Shown: positions 20,752-28,416 of the stretch, one piece after another
How positions within the stretch are numbered: position 1 is the first letter of the stretch
Layout: each line of letters opens with the position of its first letter
Assembly: GCA_905233145.1 (NCBI GenBank)
Contig: CAJODI010000030.1
Coordinates: forward strand, 1-63,431
Origin: an uncultured Ruminococcus sp.
Lineage (GTDB): Bacteria; Bacillota; Clostridia; Oscillospirales; Acutalibacteraceae
Direction: 5' to 3'
Length of the DNA: 63,431 nucleotides
Made by a program: the position numbers and the translations under genes
The notes under the pieces: model-generated
The model's input: the letters and a program-made list of their open reading frames with translations, nothing else
What the model was told of the DNA's origin: nothing
The model's database searches: none

Positions 20752-21858
20752 TTATTCAAATTCTTCAAAGTGCTTTTGAAGCTCGGCGTATACCTTGTCG
20801 CCGGGATTTTCTTTTATCAGGCTTTCGAGAGCGTTCTTATAGATATCGGTGTTATACAGCTTGTCGATATCATAATCCTCGGCATAGCCAAGCTCTACGA
20901 TCGAATTTTTCAGAGTGACCGTACCCTGCTTGTCAGGGTCGGGAACAGAGGAACCGTAACCGCCGTAAACCTCGGTGTTGATAAGCTTTTCCTCTATATC
21001 AATATACTTTTTAACGTCATTAACGGTCTGCTCTTTGTTTTCCTGAGTAAACTTATATGCCTTGATCAGCGCGCGCTCAAAAGCGGTGTAGGAATTTGGA
21101 TACTTTGCAAGCGACTCGGTAGCGGCTACCTGACGGCAGCAGGGCTGATTTTCGAGGAGCTTTTCCTCGGAGCAGCGGTAAACGACCTTGTAGCCCTGGC
21201 TCTCTGCAAGCGAGGTGTAGGGCGAATACGCCGAAGCCGCGTCGATCGAATCGTTTTGGAGCGCGTTGTAGGCGTCCTTTTGGCTGTCAAAGTAGACGAT
21301 GTTTACCTTGTCCTCACCCTCGCCGATCTCGATCCCTTTGTCTTTCAAAAGGATTTGAAGCTCCGCGTCCTGAACTGAGTTTTTTACGGAAGCTACGTTT
21401 CTTCCCTTGAGGATCGAAACATCCCAGTCTGTCTTGCCTTCAACAAATTCGGGCTTGATCACATAGCCGTGGCCGTTTGTCATCTCGCCGCCGAAGATGG
21501 TGAGGTCGTGACCCTGACTTTGGAAGGTGAGGGTGGGAACGGAGCCGATAAAGGCAACGTCGAGCTTATCGTTCTCCAATCCGCTTGACAGCTCCGCTGC
21601 GGAAGAAAACAGGGTGAGCGTTACGTCGAGTCCTTCCTCCTCAAAAAAGCCTTCTTCTTTAGCGACAAAGCCGAGCAGGTGGGCGGTGGAGTTAAGATGA
21701 CCAAGGTTGAAGGTCTTTTTTTCAAGCTTTGCTTCACCGTTTGAAGCAGCCGCGGAGGTTTCAGGGGCTGCTGAGCTGTCTGTTGATGTATTACAGCCGG
21801 TAAAAGCGGCTGTTAAAAGTACGGCGGTAAGAAATGCCGTGATGAATTTTGTTTTCAT
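20752..21858 (-). CDS. ABC transporter substrate-binding lipoprotein, NMT1/TauA-like, with PCC motif
   Basis: A 368-residue lipoprotein with lipobox AAFTGC and an NMT1/SsuA-like fold: NLGHLNSTAHLLGFVAKEEG, GSVPTLTFQSQGHDL and the later VASVKNSVQDAELQILL. It should capture a small organic ligand, classically a sulfonate or taurine. One oddity is the vicinal cysteine motif ENQPCCRQVAAT at about residue 240. The gene lies directly after a small lipoprotein with three Asp-Cys-Cys motifs and behind a Cys/Met-rich leader ORF, which points to a sulfur compound as ligand, by inference. Confidence 0.85.
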   Translation of the reverse strand: MKTKFITAFLTAVLLTAAFTGCNTSTDSSAAPETSAAASNGEAKLEKKTFNLGHLNSTAHLLGFVAKEEGFFEEEGLDVTLTLFSSAAELSSGLENDKLDVAFIGSVPTLTFQSQGHDLTIFGGEMTNGHGYVIKPEFVEGKTDWDVSILKGRNVASVKNSVQDAELQILLKDKGIEIGEGEDKVNIVYFDSQKDAYNALQNDSIDAASAYSPYTSLAESQGYKVVYRCSEEKLLENQPCCRQVAATESLAKYPNSYTAFERALIKAYKFTQENKEQTVNDVKKYIDIEEKLINTEVYGGYGSSVPDPDKQGTVTLKNSIVELGYAEDYDIDKLYNTDIYKNALESLIKENPGDKVYAELQKHFEEFE

Positions 21859-21888: not shown

Positions 21889-22125
21889 TTATTTTCCCGC
21901 GCAGCAGTCGGGAACATCTGAGGCATTTGACGAGCTGCTGTCCGAATGCACTTTGTTTTTGCAGCAGTCGGGAAGCTCTGAGGCGGTTGTTTCCTTTTCC
22001 TTACAACAGTCGCTCGTTTCGCTTTCGCTGTGACTGCTTTCCGTTGACGCGCTTGTCGTTGCGCAGCCGCTTACGGTGAACGCAGCGACAAGTGCTGTGA
22101 TACAGACGATCAATATCTTTTTCAT
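21889..22125 (-). CDS. Small lipoprotein with three Asp-Cys-Cys motifs
   Basis: A 78-residue lipoprotein: a signal peptide with lipobox VSGC (lipid Cys at about 20), then a Ser/Glu/Thr-rich, probably unstructured chain with DCCKEK, DCCKNK and DCCAGK spaced about 20 residues apart. AAGGGAG precedes the ATG. It is first in the importer operon, 30 bases upstream of the binding protein. I know of no family match. Vicinal cysteines outside the membrane could hold a metal ion, form mixed disulfides with a thiol ligand, or deliver it to the PCC-bearing binding protein. These ideas are inference. Confidence 0.8.
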   Translation of the reverse strand: MKKILIVCITALVAAFTVSGCATTSASTESSHSESETSDCCKEKETTASELPDCCKNKVHSDSSSSNASDVPDCCAGK

Positions 22126-22150: not shown

Positions 22151-22179
22151 AAAAAAACGGAAGTCATATGCTGACTTCC
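22151..22179 (-). terminator. Intrinsic terminator/attenuator between leader ORF and lipoprotein gene
   Basis: On the minus strand GGAAGTCA, five-base loop, TGACTTCC, then G and TTTTTTT (22151-22157). It lies 24 bases after the leader ORF stop and 26 before the lipoprotein ATG, so full transcripts of the operon must read through it. Confidence 0.88.
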
Positions 22180-22202: not shown

Positions 22203-22298
22203 TCACATTCGGAGCGCACAGCAAGCCACAACGCAGAAAAATGCCCTTTGCTTTTTACACATAAATGTATTCATACACATTGTTGCATAGGTGGTCAT
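22203..22298 (-). CDS. Cys/Met-rich leader peptide (31 residues)
   Basis: A short ORF begins about 25 bases from the predicted transcription start with AAAGGAG eight bases before its ATG. The 31-residue peptide carries five Cys and five Met (segments MTTYATMCMNTFMCKK and FFCVVACCALRM). A perfect terminator follows at 22151-22179. Promoter, ribosome-binding site, residue-biased short ORF and terminator ahead of a biosynthetic or transport operon is the layout of ribosome-mediated attenuation, here most likely sensing Cys-tRNA (perhaps Met too). I did not find a clear antiterminator by eye. A functional Cys-rich peptide is the alternative. Confidence 0.65.
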   Translation of the reverse strand: MTTYATMCMNTFMCKKQRAFFCVVACCALRM

Positions 22299-22329
22299 GG
22301 CGTTTTCTCCTTTCGTTTTCAGTGAGATT

Positions 22330-23322: not shown

Positions 23323-24234
23323 CTATTCGTAAAGATGTTTTGTAAAATAACGGTCGCCGCGGTCGGGAAGAATAATAACTATATTTCCTCTCGCGCCGCT
23401 GCTGACAAGTTTTTTTGCCGCAGCCAGTGCCGCGCCCGAGGAAGAGCCGGCAAAGATGCCTTCCTTTAACGCAAGCTCGCGTGCTCCGTCAAACGCCTCT
23501 GCGTCGGTCATTTTGACCACCCTGTCAACAAGCGACATATCCATGGTGTCGGCTATAAAGTCATTGCCGATGCCCTCGATATCGTAATCGCCGTGCTCGC
23601 CGCCTCCCATAGTGGAGCCGATGGGGTCGGCAAGCACACCTGTAATGTTTTTGTTTTTCTCTTTCAAAAATCTGACAACGCCGGAATAGGTGCCGCCGCT
23701 GCCTGCTCCCGCAACGAGGTAATCAATGTTTCCGTTTAAGTCCTCGTAAATCTCTCTGCCGGTGGTTTCGTAATGCGCCTGCGGATTCGCCTGATTTTTG
23801 AACTGCTCAAGCGTGACCGCGCCGGGAATGGAACGGCGTATTTCCTCCGCCTTGTCCCATGCGCCCAGCATACCGCCCTCACGGGGAGTATTGATGATCT
23901 TAGCCCCCAAAGCGCGCAGGAGAGTCTGCTTTTCTTCGGAAAACTTGGTGGGAACGACAAACACGATTTTGTAGTCCTTGTTCAGCGCGGCAAAGGCGAT
24001 CCCGAGACCCGTATTTCCTGCCGTGGCCTCGACTATCGTGCCGCCCTTTTTCAGGATACCGCGTTTTTCGGCGTCCCCGATCATATATTTTCCGATCCTG
24101 TCCTTAACGCTTCCCGAAGGGTTGTACAGCTCTAATTTTGCATAAAGATTCGCTCCGTCAGGCAAATCAAGGTGGCTCAGCTTTACAAGCGGAGTGTTTC
24201 CGATCAACTGCTGCATATCGTGATAGAGTGCCAT
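23323..24234 (-). CDS. mccA: MccA-like PLP-dependent cystathionine beta-synthase / cysteine synthase family
   Basis: A 303-residue fold-type II PLP enzyme of the CysK/CBS family. PSGSVKDR holds the cofactor lysine; ATAGNTG and AGAGSGGTYSG bind the phosphate; the family-specific IEGIGNDFIADTMD is also present. Next to mccB, luxS and a methyltransferase it matches MccA of the reverse transsulfuration pathway: homocysteine (from LuxS) plus (O-acetyl)serine gives cystathionine. It differs clearly from the second cysK-type gene at 27016-27939, which argues for separate roles. GAGG lies seven bases before the ATG. Confidence 0.86.
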   Translation of the reverse strand: MALYHDMQQLIGNTPLVKLSHLDLPDGANLYAKLELYNPSGSVKDRIGKYMIGDAEKRGILKKGGTIVEATAGNTGLGIAFAALNKDYKIVFVVPTKFSEEKQTLLRALGAKIINTPREGGMLGAWDKAEEIRRSIPGAVTLEQFKNQANPQAHYETTGREIYEDLNGNIDYLVAGAGSGGTYSGVVRFLKEKNKNITGVLADPIGSTMGGGEHGDYDIEGIGNDFIADTMDMSLVDRVVKMTDAEAFDGARELALKEGIFAGSSSGAALAAAKKLVSSGARGNIVIILPDRGDRYFTKHLYE

Positions 24235-24236
24235 GT

Positions 24237-25394
24237 TTATTCCTCGCTTTCCGCTATTGCCTGCTCCAAATCGGCAAGAATGTCGTCAATGCTCTCGATG
24301 CCGACGGACAGTCTGATCAAGCCGTCGGTAATGCCTATCCTTTGGCGCACCTCGTAAGGGATCGCGGCGTGCGTCATGCTTGCAGGGTGGCATACCAGAC
24401 TCTCCACGCCGCCGAGACTCTCCGCAAGCGCGACGAGCCTTAGCGACTTGAAGAATTTTTTGATATCGTAGCTTTCGTACAGCTCAAAGGAAATCATCGC
24501 GCCGCCGTTTTTCGCTTGCCGCTTGTTGATCTCGTAGCCCTGTGCGCCGGGAAGTCCGGGGTAATAGACCTTTTTGACAGCATTATGATTCTGCAAATAT
24601 TGAGCTGCTTTTTCGGCGTTCTCAACATGGCGGTCAAGGCGCACGCCGAGAGTCTTTATCCCTCTTATCAGCAAAAAGCTGTCGAAGGGTCCCGGCACGC
24701 CGCCTGTTGAATTCTGGATAAAGGCAAGCCTTTGCGCGAGCGCGTCATCGTTGACAACAACCAAGCCTGCCACCACGTCGCTGTGACCGCCGAGGTATTT
24801 TGTCGCGCTGTGAACAACGATATCAGCGCCCAGCCCGATCGGTCTTTGGAGGTACGGAGTCATAAAGGTATTATCGACAATCGAGAGGATACCGTGCTTT
24901 TTTGCCAGAGCCGCGACCGCAGCGAGGTCTGTGACCGTCAGCAGAGGATTTGCCGGGCTTTCGACGAGGATCGCCTTGACCTCGGGGGTGATTTTACTTT
25001 CCAGCGCGGCTAAATCGGTGGTGTCCTCGATCGAATAGCCGATGTTAAAATGACTGAACACCTTGTCGAGCACACGGAAGGTGCCGCCGTAAACATTGCT
25101 TGAAATCAGGATCTTGTCGCCCGATCCAAAAAGGCTGAGCACTGCGGTGATCGCAGCCATACCGGAACCGAAGGCAAAGCCTGCCGTTCCGCCCTCGAGC
25201 TCTGCGATCAGCGCTTCAAGCGCAGCGCGGGTCGGATTGCCCGTGCGCGAATACTCCCACTTAAACTCCTCGCCCAAGCCGGTCTGCCGATAGGTCGAGG
25301 TCTGATAGATCGGAACATTGACCGCTCCCGTGAATTCGTCTGTGGATATTCCGCCGTGAATCAGCGCGGATCCTATGTGTTTATAACTTCCCAT
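24237..25394 (-). CDS. mccB: MccB-like cystathionine gamma-lyase (Cys/Met metabolism PLP enzyme)
   Basis: A 385-residue fold-type I enzyme of the Cys/Met metabolism family: YSRTGNPTRAALE at the active site, SGMAA, and the cofactor lysine in HSATKYLGGHSD. In this neighbourhood the natural role is cleavage of cystathionine to cysteine, 2-oxobutyrate and ammonia, completing reverse transsulfuration. Cystathionine gamma-synthase or homocysteine lyase are alternatives with the same fold. AAGGAG overlaps the end of luxS and lies eight bases before the chosen ATG; mccA follows directly. Confidence 0.88.
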   Translation of the reverse strand: MGSYKHIGSALIHGGISTDEFTGAVNVPIYQTSTYRQTGLGEEFKWEYSRTGNPTRAALEALIAELEGGTAGFAFGSGMAAITAVLSLFGSGDKILISSNVYGGTFRVLDKVFSHFNIGYSIEDTTDLAALESKITPEVKAILVESPANPLLTVTDLAAVAALAKKHGILSIVDNTFMTPYLQRPIGLGADIVVHSATKYLGGHSDVVAGLVVVNDDALAQRLAFIQNSTGGVPGPFDSFLLIRGIKTLGVRLDRHVENAEKAAQYLQNHNAVKKVYYPGLPGAQGYEINKRQAKNGGAMISFELYESYDIKKFFKSLRLVALAESLGGVESLVCHPASMTHAAIPYEVRQRIGITDGLIRLSVGIESIDDILADLEQAIAESEE

Positions 25395-25399
25395 GATGA

Positions 25400-25861
25400 T
25401 CACTCCTTATATTTTAAATCTTCCGGTTTCCAGTTTTTTAATACGTTAAGCATATCCTTTGCGGTTTTTTTGGCGCCGTCCAAATCATGCTCGGCGTAGT
25501 TTCCGCACTCTGCACGTTTGCTTCCGGGGATTTCACCCTCAAAGCCGGATATATATTCAAGACTGTCGCGCACCAGACGGACAGCGCGTTCATTTGATAC
25601 GCTGTCTCTGACAAGCAGGTAAAAACCTGTGCGGCAGCCCATCGGCCCGACATATACAACATCATTGGACACATTGCTGTTTCGCGCGTAAGTGGCAAAC
25701 AAATGCTCAATCGTGTGAAGCTCGCCGTTGCCGAGATAGTCTCCGCCGTTTGGTTTTTTCATTCTGACGTCATAAGTCACAACGTCTCCGTCAACGCGCG
25801 AAAGGTACATTCCTTTTTCCAGTTTGTCGTGATCGACGGTGAAGCTAGCTATTGTTTTCAT
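25400..25861 (-). CDS. luxS: S-ribosylhomocysteine lyase
   Basis: LuxS, 153 residues, splits S-ribosylhomocysteine into homocysteine and DPD (the autoinducer-2 precursor). The metal site HTIEH (residues 49-53) and the second Cys ligand in AECGNYAEHD are present, as is the catalytic Cys in GPMGCRTGFYL. ATG at 25861 overlaps the methyltransferase stop (TGATG), with GGGGAGG upstream. No nucleosidase (mtnN) gene lies in this operon, so that step must be encoded elsewhere. Confidence 0.96.
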   Translation of the reverse strand: MKTIASFTVDHDKLEKGMYLSRVDGDVVTYDVRMKKPNGGDYLGNGELHTIEHLFATYARNSNVSNDVVYVGPMGCRTGFYLLVRDSVSNERAVRLVRDSLEYISGFEGEIPGSKRAECGNYAEHDLDGAKKTAKDMLNVLKNWKPEDLKYKE

Positions 25862-26781
25862 CAGGCAACCTCCCCGGGTATTTTTTCTTTGCAAGCCAAA
25901 ATAAAATTGATGTTCTCGAATGCCTCCATATCGCTGCGGTTTTTAAAATAACGCAGTTGTATCATCTGCGGAGTTTCATGCTCCTCGATCTCAAAGCCGT
26001 GACGTTCCAGCACGGTAAATACTTCCTTATAGGAATAGCCGTGCAGCATTTTCTCACCGAGCTTTTCTGTGATATGCGCAAGCGTGTGAACGCGCTCGGT
26101 GCTTTTGCCGTGCAGGGTCGTCTCATCGGGATAATCAAAAACCACCTTGCTCTCAGCACTGCACAGCGAGCTGATTTTGCGGATCGTTTCTTCAAAAACA
26201 GAAAGCGTCAGATAATAGGACACGCCCAGAATCGCAAAAAACGTCGGTAGCTCGGGAGCATAGCCCGAAGCGAGCAGACGTTCGCTCATATCATCCTTTG
26301 AAAAATCGATCGGAACAAAGGTGAGGTTATCCGGGATGTTCCACTCCAGCTCTTTGATCCTGCGCCGCTTGTACCTTCCCGTGTCGGGGTGATCGAGCTC
26401 AAACACCTTGATTTTGGGGTTATCGTTGCGAAACGCGAAGGTGTCCATACCTGCTCCGCATATCACATACTGACATTTGCCGTGACGCCGTGCAAACGCG
26501 TTGAGTTCACTTTCCGCAAAGGCTATGCGTGAGAGTGGGATCGGTGTGATGTAGCGATTGAGACATTTCGTGATCTTGTCGGACGCAAAGGCAAAGTTTT
26601 TATCCGACTTTTCCTCATCGAAATCATTTTGGATCAACTGTCCGATTTCCTCATATTCGTCCCTGCCCATCAAATCATAGGCAAGATAATCGTCGAAAAT
26701 CTTATTTTTTCCGATATTGGAATGAAAAGCGCGGGCAAAGGAACAAAGCTTTGCCGTAACGCTTTCCCTTGTTTCTACCAT
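25861..26781 (-). CDS. SAM-dependent methyltransferase, LCM-like family
   Basis: A 306-residue class I methyltransferase related to the leucine carboxyl methyltransferase / TIGR00027 group: YVICGAGMDTFAFR is the SAM motif, KVFELDHPDTGRYKR follows, and FAILGVSYYLT is typical of the family. It heads the luxS-mccB-mccA operon, the place held by yrrT in Bacillus and ubiG in Clostridium acetobutylicum. Its product S-adenosylhomocysteine would feed the same recycling route. GGAGG precedes the ATG. Methyl acceptor unknown. Confidence 0.85.
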   Translation of the reverse strand: MVETRESVTAKLCSFARAFHSNIGKNKIFDDYLAYDLMGRDEYEEIGQLIQNDFDEEKSDKNFAFASDKITKCLNRYITPIPLSRIAFAESELNAFARRHGKCQYVICGAGMDTFAFRNDNPKIKVFELDHPDTGRYKRRRIKELEWNIPDNLTFVPIDFSKDDMSERLLASGYAPELPTFFAILGVSYYLTLSVFEETIRKISSLCSAESKVVFDYPDETTLHGKSTERVHTLAHITEKLGEKMLHGYSYKEVFTVLERHGFEIEEHETPQMIQLRYFKNRSDMEAFENINFILACKEKIPGEVA

Positions 26782-26804
26782 CAGTTTTACCTCCGTTCAG
26801 GCAT

Positions 26805-26840
26805 AAAAATACCGCCTGCGCTGCAAATGCAGACAGACGG
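26805..26840 (-). terminator. Terminator/attenuator hairpin ahead of the methyltransferase operon
   Basis: On the minus strand CCGTCTG (26834-26840) pairs with CAGGCGG (26812-26818, one G-U), with CTGC/GCAG inside, followed by TATTTTTAT. It lies between the Cys-rich ORF and the methyltransferase gene, so transcription of luxS-mccBA from the cysK promoter must pass it. Confidence 0.75.
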
Positions 26841-26862
26841 CAAAGTTCAAACAGTGTTTTTA

Positions 26863-27003
26863 TCAAAAGCAAAACCCTTGACCGCCGCCTGTGTCCATAC
26901 AACACATACAGCAGGCGCAGAAGGGCGCAGCAATGCTGCCGAAACCATTCATGTTGACTTCGGCAAAAACGATATTGAATTGAACATTGCTGTTGATTAT
27001 CAT
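26863..27003 (-). CDS. Small Cys-cluster ORF (46 residues), leader peptide or Cys-rich product
   Basis: An ATG at 27003, nine bases after a GAGG and 12 bases past the cysK stop, opens a 46-codon ORF. It begins MIINSNVQFNIVFAEVNMNG and ends with a cluster, PFCACCMCCMD, then TGGGQGFCF: six Cys codons, five within a seven-codon window. A terminator hairpin follows 22 bases downstream and the sulfur-recycling operon after that. The best reading is a translated Cys-sensing leader for methyltransferase-luxS-mccBA. A metallothionein-like peptide or a modified-peptide precursor next to a methyltransferase is possible. No database family is recognised. Confidence 0.62.
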   Translation of the reverse strand: MIINSNVQFNIVFAEVNMNGFGSIAAPFCACCMCCMDTGGGQGFCF

Positions 27004-27015
27004 TTTGCTTACCTC

Positions 27016-27939
27016 TTATTCTGAAAACATGGGAGTTGAAAGGTATCTTTCTCCCGTGTCGGGCAATATTGCCACTATGATTTTTCCTTTGTTTTCGGGA
27101 CGCTTTGCCAATTGAGCCGCAGCCCAAACAGCCGCTCCCGACGAAATGCCGACAAGCAGACCCTCGTGCTTGGCGAGCTCTTTGCCTGTTGTGAAAGCGT
27201 CCTCGTTTGTCACCTTGATGACTTCATCATATACGTCGGCGTTGAGCGTTTCGGGAACAAATCCCGCGCCGATGCCCTGGATCTTATGCGGTCCCGGCTT
27301 TTCTCCCGACAAAACGGGAGAGCCGGACGGCTCAACGGCGACAACCTGAATGTTCGGATTTTTGGTTTTTAAATATTCGCCCACACCCGAAACGGTTCCG
27401 CCTGTTCCGACGCCGGCAACAAGAATATCTACTCTTCCGTCGGTGTCGTCCCAAATTTCGGGACCGGTCGTGTCATAATGCGCCTTGGGGTTGGCATTGT
27501 TAGTAAACTGGCTCGGAATAAAACTGCGTGCGTTTTCGGCAGCGATCTCCTGCGCCTTTTGAATAGCGCCCTTCATTCCCTTGACGCCCTCTGTCAAAAC
27601 GACCTTTGCGCCATAAGCCTTCAACAGGTTTCTGCGCTCAACGCTCATTGTCTCGGGCATGGTTAGGATCACCTTATATCCTCTCGCCGCAGCTACGGCA
27701 GCAAGACCGATTCCTGTGTTGCCGCTGGTCGGCTCCACGATGACCGAATCGGGCTTTAGTATTCCCTTAGCCTCGGCGTCGTCGATCATCGCCTTGGCGA
27801 TCCTGTCCTTGACGCTTCCGGCAGGATTGAAGTATTCCAGCTTGCCGAATACGGTCGCGCCCGTGTTTTTTTCTATGCTTTCGAGCTCCAAAAGCGGTGT
27901 GTTTCCGATCAAGTCGGTAATTTTCTTATATGTTCTCAT
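27016..27939 (-). CDS. cysK: Cysteine synthase (O-acetylserine thiol-lyase)
   Basis: A 307-residue Cys[24 protein letters not shown] with the cofactor lysine, the substrate loop [21 protein letters not shown] for phosphate binding, and [15 protein letters not shown], all classical for O-acetylserine sulfhydrylase A. It makes cysteine from O-acetylserine and sulfide. GGGAG lies upstream of the ATG. Upstream, a dyad (28043-28061) overlaps the predicted promoter. It is followed within 12 bases by the Cys-rich small ORF. Confidence 0.94.
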
Positions 27940-28037
27940 AGCAGTATACTCCCTTTGTATTTATTAACGCCTAAAAATACAGCAGAGTCAACATCGCTTT
28001 AAAGGTTGGAAAAAGCTCATAATAATTCCTCTGATTT

Positions 28038-28061
28038 ATAATACCTATTTACTTGGTAGGT
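28038..28061 (-). promoter_or_regulatory. cysK promoter region with ACCTA/TAGGT dyad
   Basis: The minus-strand -10 candidate TATTAT lies at 28038-28043, and the dyad ACCTA-N9-TAGGT (28043-28061) fills the spacer; the -35 is poor. An AT-rich dyad of this kind resembles operators of Rrf2-family regulators such as CymR, which control cysteine genes in Firmicutes; this is a suggestion only. A ten-codon ORF ending in a Cys codon (28020-27988, start MSFFQPLKRC) with GAGG upstream lies in the leader and may be chance. Confidence 0.45.
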
Positions 28062-28416
28062 TTATTCCATAAAACATTATCTCACATTTCAATTGGTTTG
28101 TCAAGCCGTTTTTTCCGTTACGGTTATAGATTATTTCTATTGCCGGTTATAAACCGAATATTCGATACAAGAAAAACCGGGTGTTGCCTTAATTTCATCC
28201 GATTTGTATGTAGTGAGCAGGTTTTGTACCTGCCCACCCTTTATCTTATGCGGATTTGTCAGGGATATAATATCCGAACATATTCAAACTTATTCGGTTG
28301 TGAATTGATTATGCTATATCTAACAATTTTTCGCCGGTTAAGTTCCGGTATTATGCACCGAAAATATGTATTGAACACTCTGATACGCGCCAATAAATCT
28401 CCAAAAAAGAAAAGTT
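28062..28416. other. Intergenic region without gene
   Basis: About 350 bases between the divergent cysK and response-regulator genes. It contains a perfect inverted repeat GCAGGTTTTGTACCTGC near 28218 and a GGTGTTGCCTTAA scrap (about 28181) like the end of the family-1 elements. I see no ORF or known RNA in it. Confidence 0.5.

Follow-up and report, generated by a model that had tools for sequence, protein, structure and literature searches.

A cysteine-rich open reading frame (ORF) and a terminator located between cysK and a methyltransferase gene in an uncultured Ruminococcus sp. are interpreted here as parts of an intra-operonic, ribosome-mediated transcription attenuator that would sense the charging of tRNA-Cys, a reading to which we assign a probability of roughly 84%. 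It is well supported by comparison among related loci, as distinct from experiment. The sequence contains the defining parts of such an attenuator, namely an ORF led by a Shine-Dalgarno (SD) sequence, Cys codons, an intrinsic terminator, and an antiterminator that shares the 5' arm of the terminator. Cys codons also fit this operon, because the genes downstream make cysteine.

Gene content and organization of the locus

The window (the whole stretch of 63,431 nucleotides that was analyzed) carries on its minus strand, in order, cysK, the leader ORF, a methyltransferase gene (TIGR00027/LCM), luxS, an mccB-like gene and an mccA-like gene; all features described below lie on this strand unless they are symmetrical. 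The cysteine synthase A gene cysK (27016..27939) matches TIGR01139 above its cut-off (472 bits). The first gene past the candidate attenuator encodes a SAM-dependent methyltransferase of the LCM family (25861..26781; TIGR00027, 147 bits, above cut-off; PF04072), and is followed by luxS, encoding S-ribosylhomocysteine lyase (25400..25861; NF002604, 178 bits, above cut-off; PF02664). The next product (24237..25403) is an mccB-like enzyme of the cystathionine gamma-lyase/synthase family (PF01053, 500 bits) with 58 NCBIfam matches, the best 25 of which all fall below their own cut-offs, and the last is an mccA-like beta-synthase of the CysK/CBS family (23323..24234; TIGR01136, 332 bits, just under cut-off; PF00291). 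A consensus-like promoter, recognized by sequence match, precedes cysK at 28075..28104 (TTGACA, 28099-28104; GATAATG, 28075-28081) and probably serves the whole unit from cysK to the mccA-like gene. The message for the leader ORF would come most simply from the cysK transcript, because the SD sequence of the ORF overlaps the cysK stop codon and the ORF starts only 12 nt downstream of that stop.

The leader ORF and its cysteine codons

The leader ORF spans 46 codons (26863..27003, stop codon 26863-26865; MIINSNVQFNIVFAEVNMNGFGSIAAPFCACCMCCMDTGGGQGFCF), is present in the ORF list, and has orthologues in relatives. Its SD sequence AAGAGGT lies at 27011..27017, and all 12 cysK-linked genus copies that retain their 5' end have AAGAGG. 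Hence the short Cys-cluster ORF with its own ribosome-binding site that the initial annotation placed between cysK and the methyltransferase gene is confirmed, as is the terminator hairpin 3' of it, which consists of a stem at 26811-26841 plus a U tract. The proposed stall site is a run of Cys codons, TGC GCC TGC TGT ATG TGT TGT (26899..26919), identified from the sequence and from folds. Five Cys within seven codons is far above background, because in eleven neighbouring genes Cys makes up only 30 of 3606 residues; the binomial probability is about 2e-6 for at least 6 Cys in 46 codons and about 8e-10, before correction for position, for at least 5 Cys in 7 codons. A hairpin inside the leader ORF, GCCGAA...TTCGGC (26938..26964), was seen by eye to be kept in most of the cysK-linked genus copies.

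Terminator, antiterminator and the proposed mechanism

Four segments can be recognized by folding, two of them also by pairing at individual loci. Segment 1 (26902..26918) overlaps the Cys codons and is the possible arm of a 1:2 protector hairpin. Segment 2, ACACAGGCGGC (26884..26894), lies just past the Cys codons and would form the 5' arm of the antiterminator. Segment 3, GCCGTCTGT (26833..26841), is common to the antiterminator, as its 3' arm, and to the terminator, as its 5' arm. Segment 4, GCAGGCGGT (26811-26819), completes the intrinsic terminator (26803..26841), whose stem is followed by TATTTTTAT (26803-26811) and which folds at about -20 kcal/mol; its U tract (26803-26810) is short, which counts against the model. 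Segments 2 and 4 have nearly the same sequence, which is what competition for segment 3 would require.

Folding of the window strand without ribosomes gave a hairpin across the Cys run and segment 2, together with the terminator. When the fold left out both the Cys run, as if covered by a stalled ribosome, and segment 4, as if not yet transcribed, segment 2 paired with segment 3 at -25.3 kcal/mol, against -18.2 in shuffles. Whole-copy folds of 13 genus copies (L050 not among them), again without ribosomes, gave the terminator in 9 and the antiterminator in 4 (L042, L043, L046 and L051). The 1:2 protector over the control codons did not rise above shuffles at the 58 loci compared: segment 2 was paired in 56 of 58 native folds and in 2773 of 2900 shuffled folds, with a mean z of -0.77.

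The course that we infer would involve translation of the ORF and stalling on it, read-through that depends on Cys, and a transcript shared with cysK. The cysK promoter would give rise to an RNA carrying cysK and then the leader ORF. With ample Cys-tRNA, the ribosome would cross the Cys codons and segment 2 and reach the stop codon, and its position at the moment when segment 3 is made, either over segment 2 or within the loop separating the two, would block 2:3 pairing; segment 3 would then pair with segment 4, and RNA polymerase would halt before the methyltransferase gene. With scarce Cys-tRNA, the ribosome would stall at the first Cys codons, free segment 2 would pair with segment 3, and the terminator would not form, so that methyltransferase, luxS, mccB and mccA would be transcribed; these genes would turn methionine-derived homocysteine into cysteine.

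The spacing bears on two of these steps. Segment 2 starts 0-12 nt past the last Cys of the run (58 loci), so that it would remain accessible when a ribosome stalls on the first Cys codons. Over the 58 loci, the leader stop codon ends a median of 19 nt beyond segment 2, with 36 of them falling between 16 and 30 nt, and in the window the stop starts 18 nt beyond it; because the stop is well past segment 2, a terminating ribosome need not cover that segment. The weakest step of the model is the assumed blocking of 2:3 pairing from inside the loop by a ribosome finishing the ORF.

Conservation within the genus

A survey of the genus recovered the methyltransferase at E<=1e-60 in 14 of 161 genomes, and all 14 have the Cys run, segments 2, 3 and 4, and the terminator, the start of the ORF being cut off by a contig end in one. 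The Cys of the ORF are thus conserved, where the initial annotation had named a lack of conserved Cys, together with a lack of any ribosome footprint, as grounds for abandoning its proposal. Native pairing of segments 2 and 3 was reached by at most 9 of 500 spacer shuffles in each of the 14 copies, with antiterminator z values from -1.9 to -4.4. The genus encodes 12 distinct leader peptides with 4 to 6 Cys each. Because the multiple alignment misplaced segment 3 of the divergent R. bromii copy, pairing was scored locus by locus. A query with the leader peptide against 59 relatives returned only the window itself and six other genomes (E 0.06-0.29), and orthologues were located via neighbouring genes. 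The pattern CxCCxCC was discarded as a genus-wide detector, having matched 140 of 161 genomes while a control pattern matched many too.

The copy in R. bromii YE282 (L052/L191) has no cysK upstream in the stretch examined, and its leader is preceded by its own promoter-like TTGACA/TATAAT. Since it keeps the leader without cysK, the element appears to go with the methyltransferase operon and not with cysK. One base is added in each of segments 2, 3 and 4 of this copy (scored as L191). Cultured strains among the carriers include R. bromii YE282, Eubacterium oxidoreducens DSM 3217 and Ruminiclostridium sufflavum DSM 19573.

Distribution beyond the genus

A scan with the methyltransferase alignment, taking one genome per species, gave 131 stretches, of which the best 80 were kept. 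These are mostly from Clostridia, with eight from Treponema, two from alphaproteobacterial metagenome-assembled genomes (MAGs) and one from a Gastranaerophilales MAG. Among the best 80 of 131, a scripted leader (at least 3 Cys in 8 codons) was found in 71 by a script that scores an SD sequence without requiring one, and in 60 by a stricter detector. A scripted terminator follows 70 of the 71 leaders; the terminator script mis-parsed L158, L168 and L206 and missed L166. All 20 loci missed by the stricter detector, and four others, were inspected by eye. The Cys run of L173 lies in a frame that is open through to the gene, that of L178 is cut by the contig end, L215 has a looser run and L199 is doubtful; no clear Cys leader was seen by eye in L195, L196, L204, L207 or L211. 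The leader precedes the methyltransferase gene in 7 of the 8 Treponema loci, in both alphaproteobacterial MAG loci, one of them a loose case, and in the Gastranaerophilales MAG locus, MAGs that may be mis-binned.

Controls were tiled from the same loci and are largely coding. At least 4 Cys in 8 codons together with a terminator occurred in 66 of the 78 upstream regions of at least 400 bases, versus 6 of 2488 control windows, and the same architecture was found in 4 of the 78 upstreams when reversed. With segment 2 added, the counts became 55 of 78 upstreams, 1 of 2488 controls and 0 of 78 reversed upstreams. At 56 of 70 loci the best complementarity exceeded shuffles (p<=0.05); at the other 14 it did not reach this level. 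At 17 divergent loci that had not been picked for pairing, the observed pairing was reached by 4 of 5000 permutations of the terminator arms, a test from which two mis-parsed loci were dropped beforehand and in which the mis-parsed L206 remained; at six of the 17 (L197, L198, L200, L205, L212 and L213), the locus's own pairing was no better than swapped pairing. The antiterminator pairing is weak in several divergent loci. At L180, the three segments carry a coordinated triple change, CAGGTGG/CCACCTG/CAGGTGG.

An order-wide search for MccB found it at E<=1e-130 in 12 of 394 genomes, eleven besides that of the window. Five of these loci (L122, L123, L124, L127 and L129) have a Cys leader and a terminator by script, and at L123, L124 and L129 the pair lies directly before mccB, with the methyltransferase and luxS unmatched there. 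Two loci (L125 and L132) have Cys-rich frames without a scripted terminator, three (L126, L128 and L130) have no Cys leader by script, and L131 offers less than 100 nt of upstream sequence. Cys-codon attenuation, one of the readings offered by the initial annotation, is supported by the joint occurrence of Cys cluster, terminator and competing antiterminator, which was seen in all 14 genus genomes that have the gene and in the majority of the 80 wider loci.

Conserved RNA and alternative explanations

Reading frames were compared at 58 loci with pairing of at least 7 bp, a selection that leans toward the attenuation model and leaves the covariation table biased. In 53 of the 58, the CGG within the core of segment 2 falls at one codon position, and the codons that follow the Cys run mostly encode TGG or TDG. 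Segment 2 lies in another frame in five loci (L188, L194, L201, L203 and L210), where the peptide reads KRVV, KRAV, HRR or DRR; because of this change of frame, it would be the RNA and not the peptide that has been kept in these five. The number of Cys ranges from 3 to 7 per 8 codons, their spacing is variable (CACCMCC, CCCCLCCC, CCCV, CRCMCC), and the C-terminal tail is missing from some loci and differs among the others.

These observations bear directly on the possibility, also raised at the outset, that the product of the ORF is a Cys-rich peptide with a task of its own, such as metal binding or a role as a modified peptide, and that the hairpin just ends the message. The ORF and its SD sequence are kept in the genus copies, 31 leader homologues exist as predicted proteins (mostly unnamed), and codons 2-28 show some constraint, with a pooled pN/pS of 0.68 for six close copies and a pN of 0.048 vs a pS of 0.268 (ratio 0.18) in the close pair G107/G163, so that the N-terminal part of the peptide is under weak constraint. 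However, the pN of distant copies (0.35-0.42) is near their pS (0.42-0.49), the number of Cys, the N-terminus and the tail vary between loci, five loci read the element behind the Cys run in a different frame, and the peptide matches no Pfam or NCBIfam family; an independent function is accordingly disfavoured, and we regard it as improbable. Cys-rich regulatory ORFs for copper exist and CCxCC clusters are able to bind metals, which would suit a nascent Cys-rich chain that senses copper, another thiol-binding metal or redox and thereby arrests or releases the ribosome; yet the Cys spacing is not fixed and the downstream genes encode enzymes of cysteine and methionine recycling, making such a sensor decidedly improbable. 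It is scarcely credible that an ordinary terminator between two genes of the same direction lowers distal expression after cysK while the ORF is a chance frame: a Cys run may arise by chance in one genome, but the combination recurs in the upstreams far above its rate in control windows (66/78 against 6/2488), and the R. bromii copy occurs without cysK behind its own promoter-like sequence.

Riboswitch searches and comparison with known attenuators

The initial annotation saw neither an S-box nor a T-box at the leader, and covariance-model scans bear this out. Across the whole window, the sole Rfam match at gathering score is a tRNA. Relaxing the threshold to E=10 over 26600-27200 gave four weak, unrelated matches, none of them a T-box or SAM element. 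At gathering score, the 80 related loci together yielded a single Rfam match, a TPP riboswitch in L158, and neither a T-box nor a SAM element. Control by a T-box or SAM riboswitch was accordingly set aside for the leader and for these loci. Elsewhere in the genome, six T-box matches reach E<=0.001 (best E 6.2e-21), none above cut-off among the matches listed.

Andre and colleagues reportedly described, in 2008, S-box, T-box and antisense control of the ubiG-mccBA sulfur operon of Clostridium acetobutylicum. The Ruminococcus operon resembles it in having genes of the same pathway and control proposed at the RNA level, and differs in having no T-box or SAM element and a translated ORF as the proposed sensor. 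Ribosome-mediated attenuators of the trp/his/ilv type comprise a translated ORF with tandem codons for the end product and an antiterminator that competes with an intrinsic terminator. The present element shares with them a short ORF with end-product codons and a competing antiterminator and terminator; in contrast to these systems and to Listeria Rli60, it uses Cys codons, lies inside the operon after cysK in most copies, and has a protector not above shuffles. Canestrari and colleagues are said to have found, in 2020, that mycobacterial polycysteine leaderless ORFs are cysteine-responsive attenuators. Those ORFs likewise carry stretches of Cys codons ahead of cysteine genes, but are reportedly leaderless, whereas the ORF here, judged by its sequence, has an SD sequence at 27011-27017 and lies behind cysK.

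The control by mycobacterial polycysteine ORFs has been termed translation attenuation (PMC13236596). Rli60 (ilv-leu) in Listeria is an example of ribosome-mediated attenuation in Bacillota, with an ORF carrying tandem end-product codons followed by antiterminator/terminator competition, as proposed here (PMC8079631). The uORFC-8-2 motif upstream of cysS in Rhodobacterales is described as having two tandem Cys codons and an intrinsic terminator and as a proposed sensor of tRNA-Cys charging (PMC8632094). The element studied here has Cys codons in an upstream ORF and an intrinsic terminator as well; unlike that alphaproteobacterial motif (PMC8632094), it has longer Cys runs, precedes a methyltransferase-luxS-mccBA operon and is found mainly in Clostridia, and its downstream gene is a methyltransferase gene and not cysS. 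Leader ORFs of actinobacterial cys operons also carry runs of Cys codons before cysteine genes, without obvious terminators (PMC1262725), whereas the leader here is led by an SD sequence and followed by a terminator and antiterminator. Histidine leader peptides occur in bacilli before hisS/hisZ genes (PMC2965389); these are similarly leader peptides where Bacillota usually use a T-box, but for histidine and hisS/hisZ rather than for Cys and a sulfur operon. Among the mainly open-access papers listed by literature searches, none was recognized as reporting a Cys attenuator at clostridial luxS, mccB or methyltransferase operons.

A second cysteine-rich leader

Two Cys-rich leader ORFs within 5 kb had been claimed, and the second is indeed present at 22203..22298 (MTTYATMCMNTFMCKKQRAFFCVVACCALRM), with an SD sequence at 22307-22313. 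A terminator-like hairpin (22159..22179), seen in the sequence and in folds, lies past this ORF and is followed by a T tract. Downstream is the gene for a binding protein of an SsuA/NMT1-type (sulfonate-type) ABC transporter (20752..21858; TIGR01728, 99 bits, below cut-off; PF13379), found at E<=1e-60 in 17 of 161 genus genomes and preceded by a Cys-rich leader in all 17 (L083-L099), with the SD sequence or start of the leader outside the stretch taken in L087, L095 and L097. The C-terminus reads FCV(V/K)ACCA(L/F)RM in 16 of the 17, and L099 differs. A design of competing stems was considered for this leader and found unsupported, as the terminators change while the C-terminal codons stay. In several folds, GCGCTCC in the leader pairs with a GGGAGT that precedes the next gene, which hints that this leader may act by masking the ribosome site of that gene. 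A small lipoprotein-like ORF with three DCC motifs (21889-22125, minus strand; no Pfam or NCBIfam match) adjoins the transporter gene.

The suggestion of a general mode of Cys-codon attenuation in this lineage can be followed over the methyltransferase, mccB-only and transporter operons: it is supported for the first and for some of the second, and the transporter operon is less clear in mechanism.

The cysK upstream region and implications

Upstream of cysK, a 10-codon mini-ORF with an SD sequence, MSFFQPLKRC (27988..28020), has counterparts in related cysK upstreams. Among loci L137-L216, an SD-led mini-ORF with Arg-Cys was found in 35 of 50 cysK upstreams versus 28 of 5074 control windows, one ending in Arg-Cys in 30 of 50 versus 11 of 5074, and CGATGTTG in 34 of 50; no terminator was noticed by the mini-ORF in the cysK upstreams. 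On this sequence pattern, the mini-ORF may be another Cys sensor. At L173, a mini-ORF (MYPKRCCAV) lies ahead of the large Cys leader and no cysK was matched upstream; the mini-ORF may hence belong with the promoter and not with cysK. The palindrome ACCTACCAAGTAAATAGGT (28043..28061) looks like a possible CymR/Rrf2-type operator. CCTA-N9-TAGG occurs near the promoter in 11 of the 17 loci examined (L191, L198-L200, L203-L206, L210, L212 and L124), and 44 of the 50 related cysK upstreams have a looser palindrome-like box, a raw count without background control.

Taken together, these features allow a broader proposal that we advance tentatively, at somewhat less than even odds. One unit would read tRNA-Cys charging more than once, through a CymR/Rrf2-like operator at the promoter, a strongly conserved Arg-Cys mini-ORF ahead of cysK and a Cys-run attenuator; the transporter leader would extend this control to sulfur uptake; and translated Cys sensors, not T-boxes, would be the main cysteine control of the lineage. 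If so, cysteine would be made from sulfide first, and the costlier methionine route would be used only if charging stays low.

Cys attenuators are already known from Actinobacteria and from cysS of Rhodobacterales, and the element described here lies within a clostridial operon, a placement that makes physiological sense. In published descriptions, Bacillota rely on T-boxes for the tasks that leader peptides perform in proteobacteria, apart from a few exceptions (PMC1262725, PMC2965389). If the attenuator reading is true, classical attenuation would act on sulfur metabolism in gut and rumen Clostridia and rank two cysteine routes within one operon. It would also offer a role for 31 predicted small proteins, and the element would be a ready reporter of cysteine status in the bacteria that carry it.
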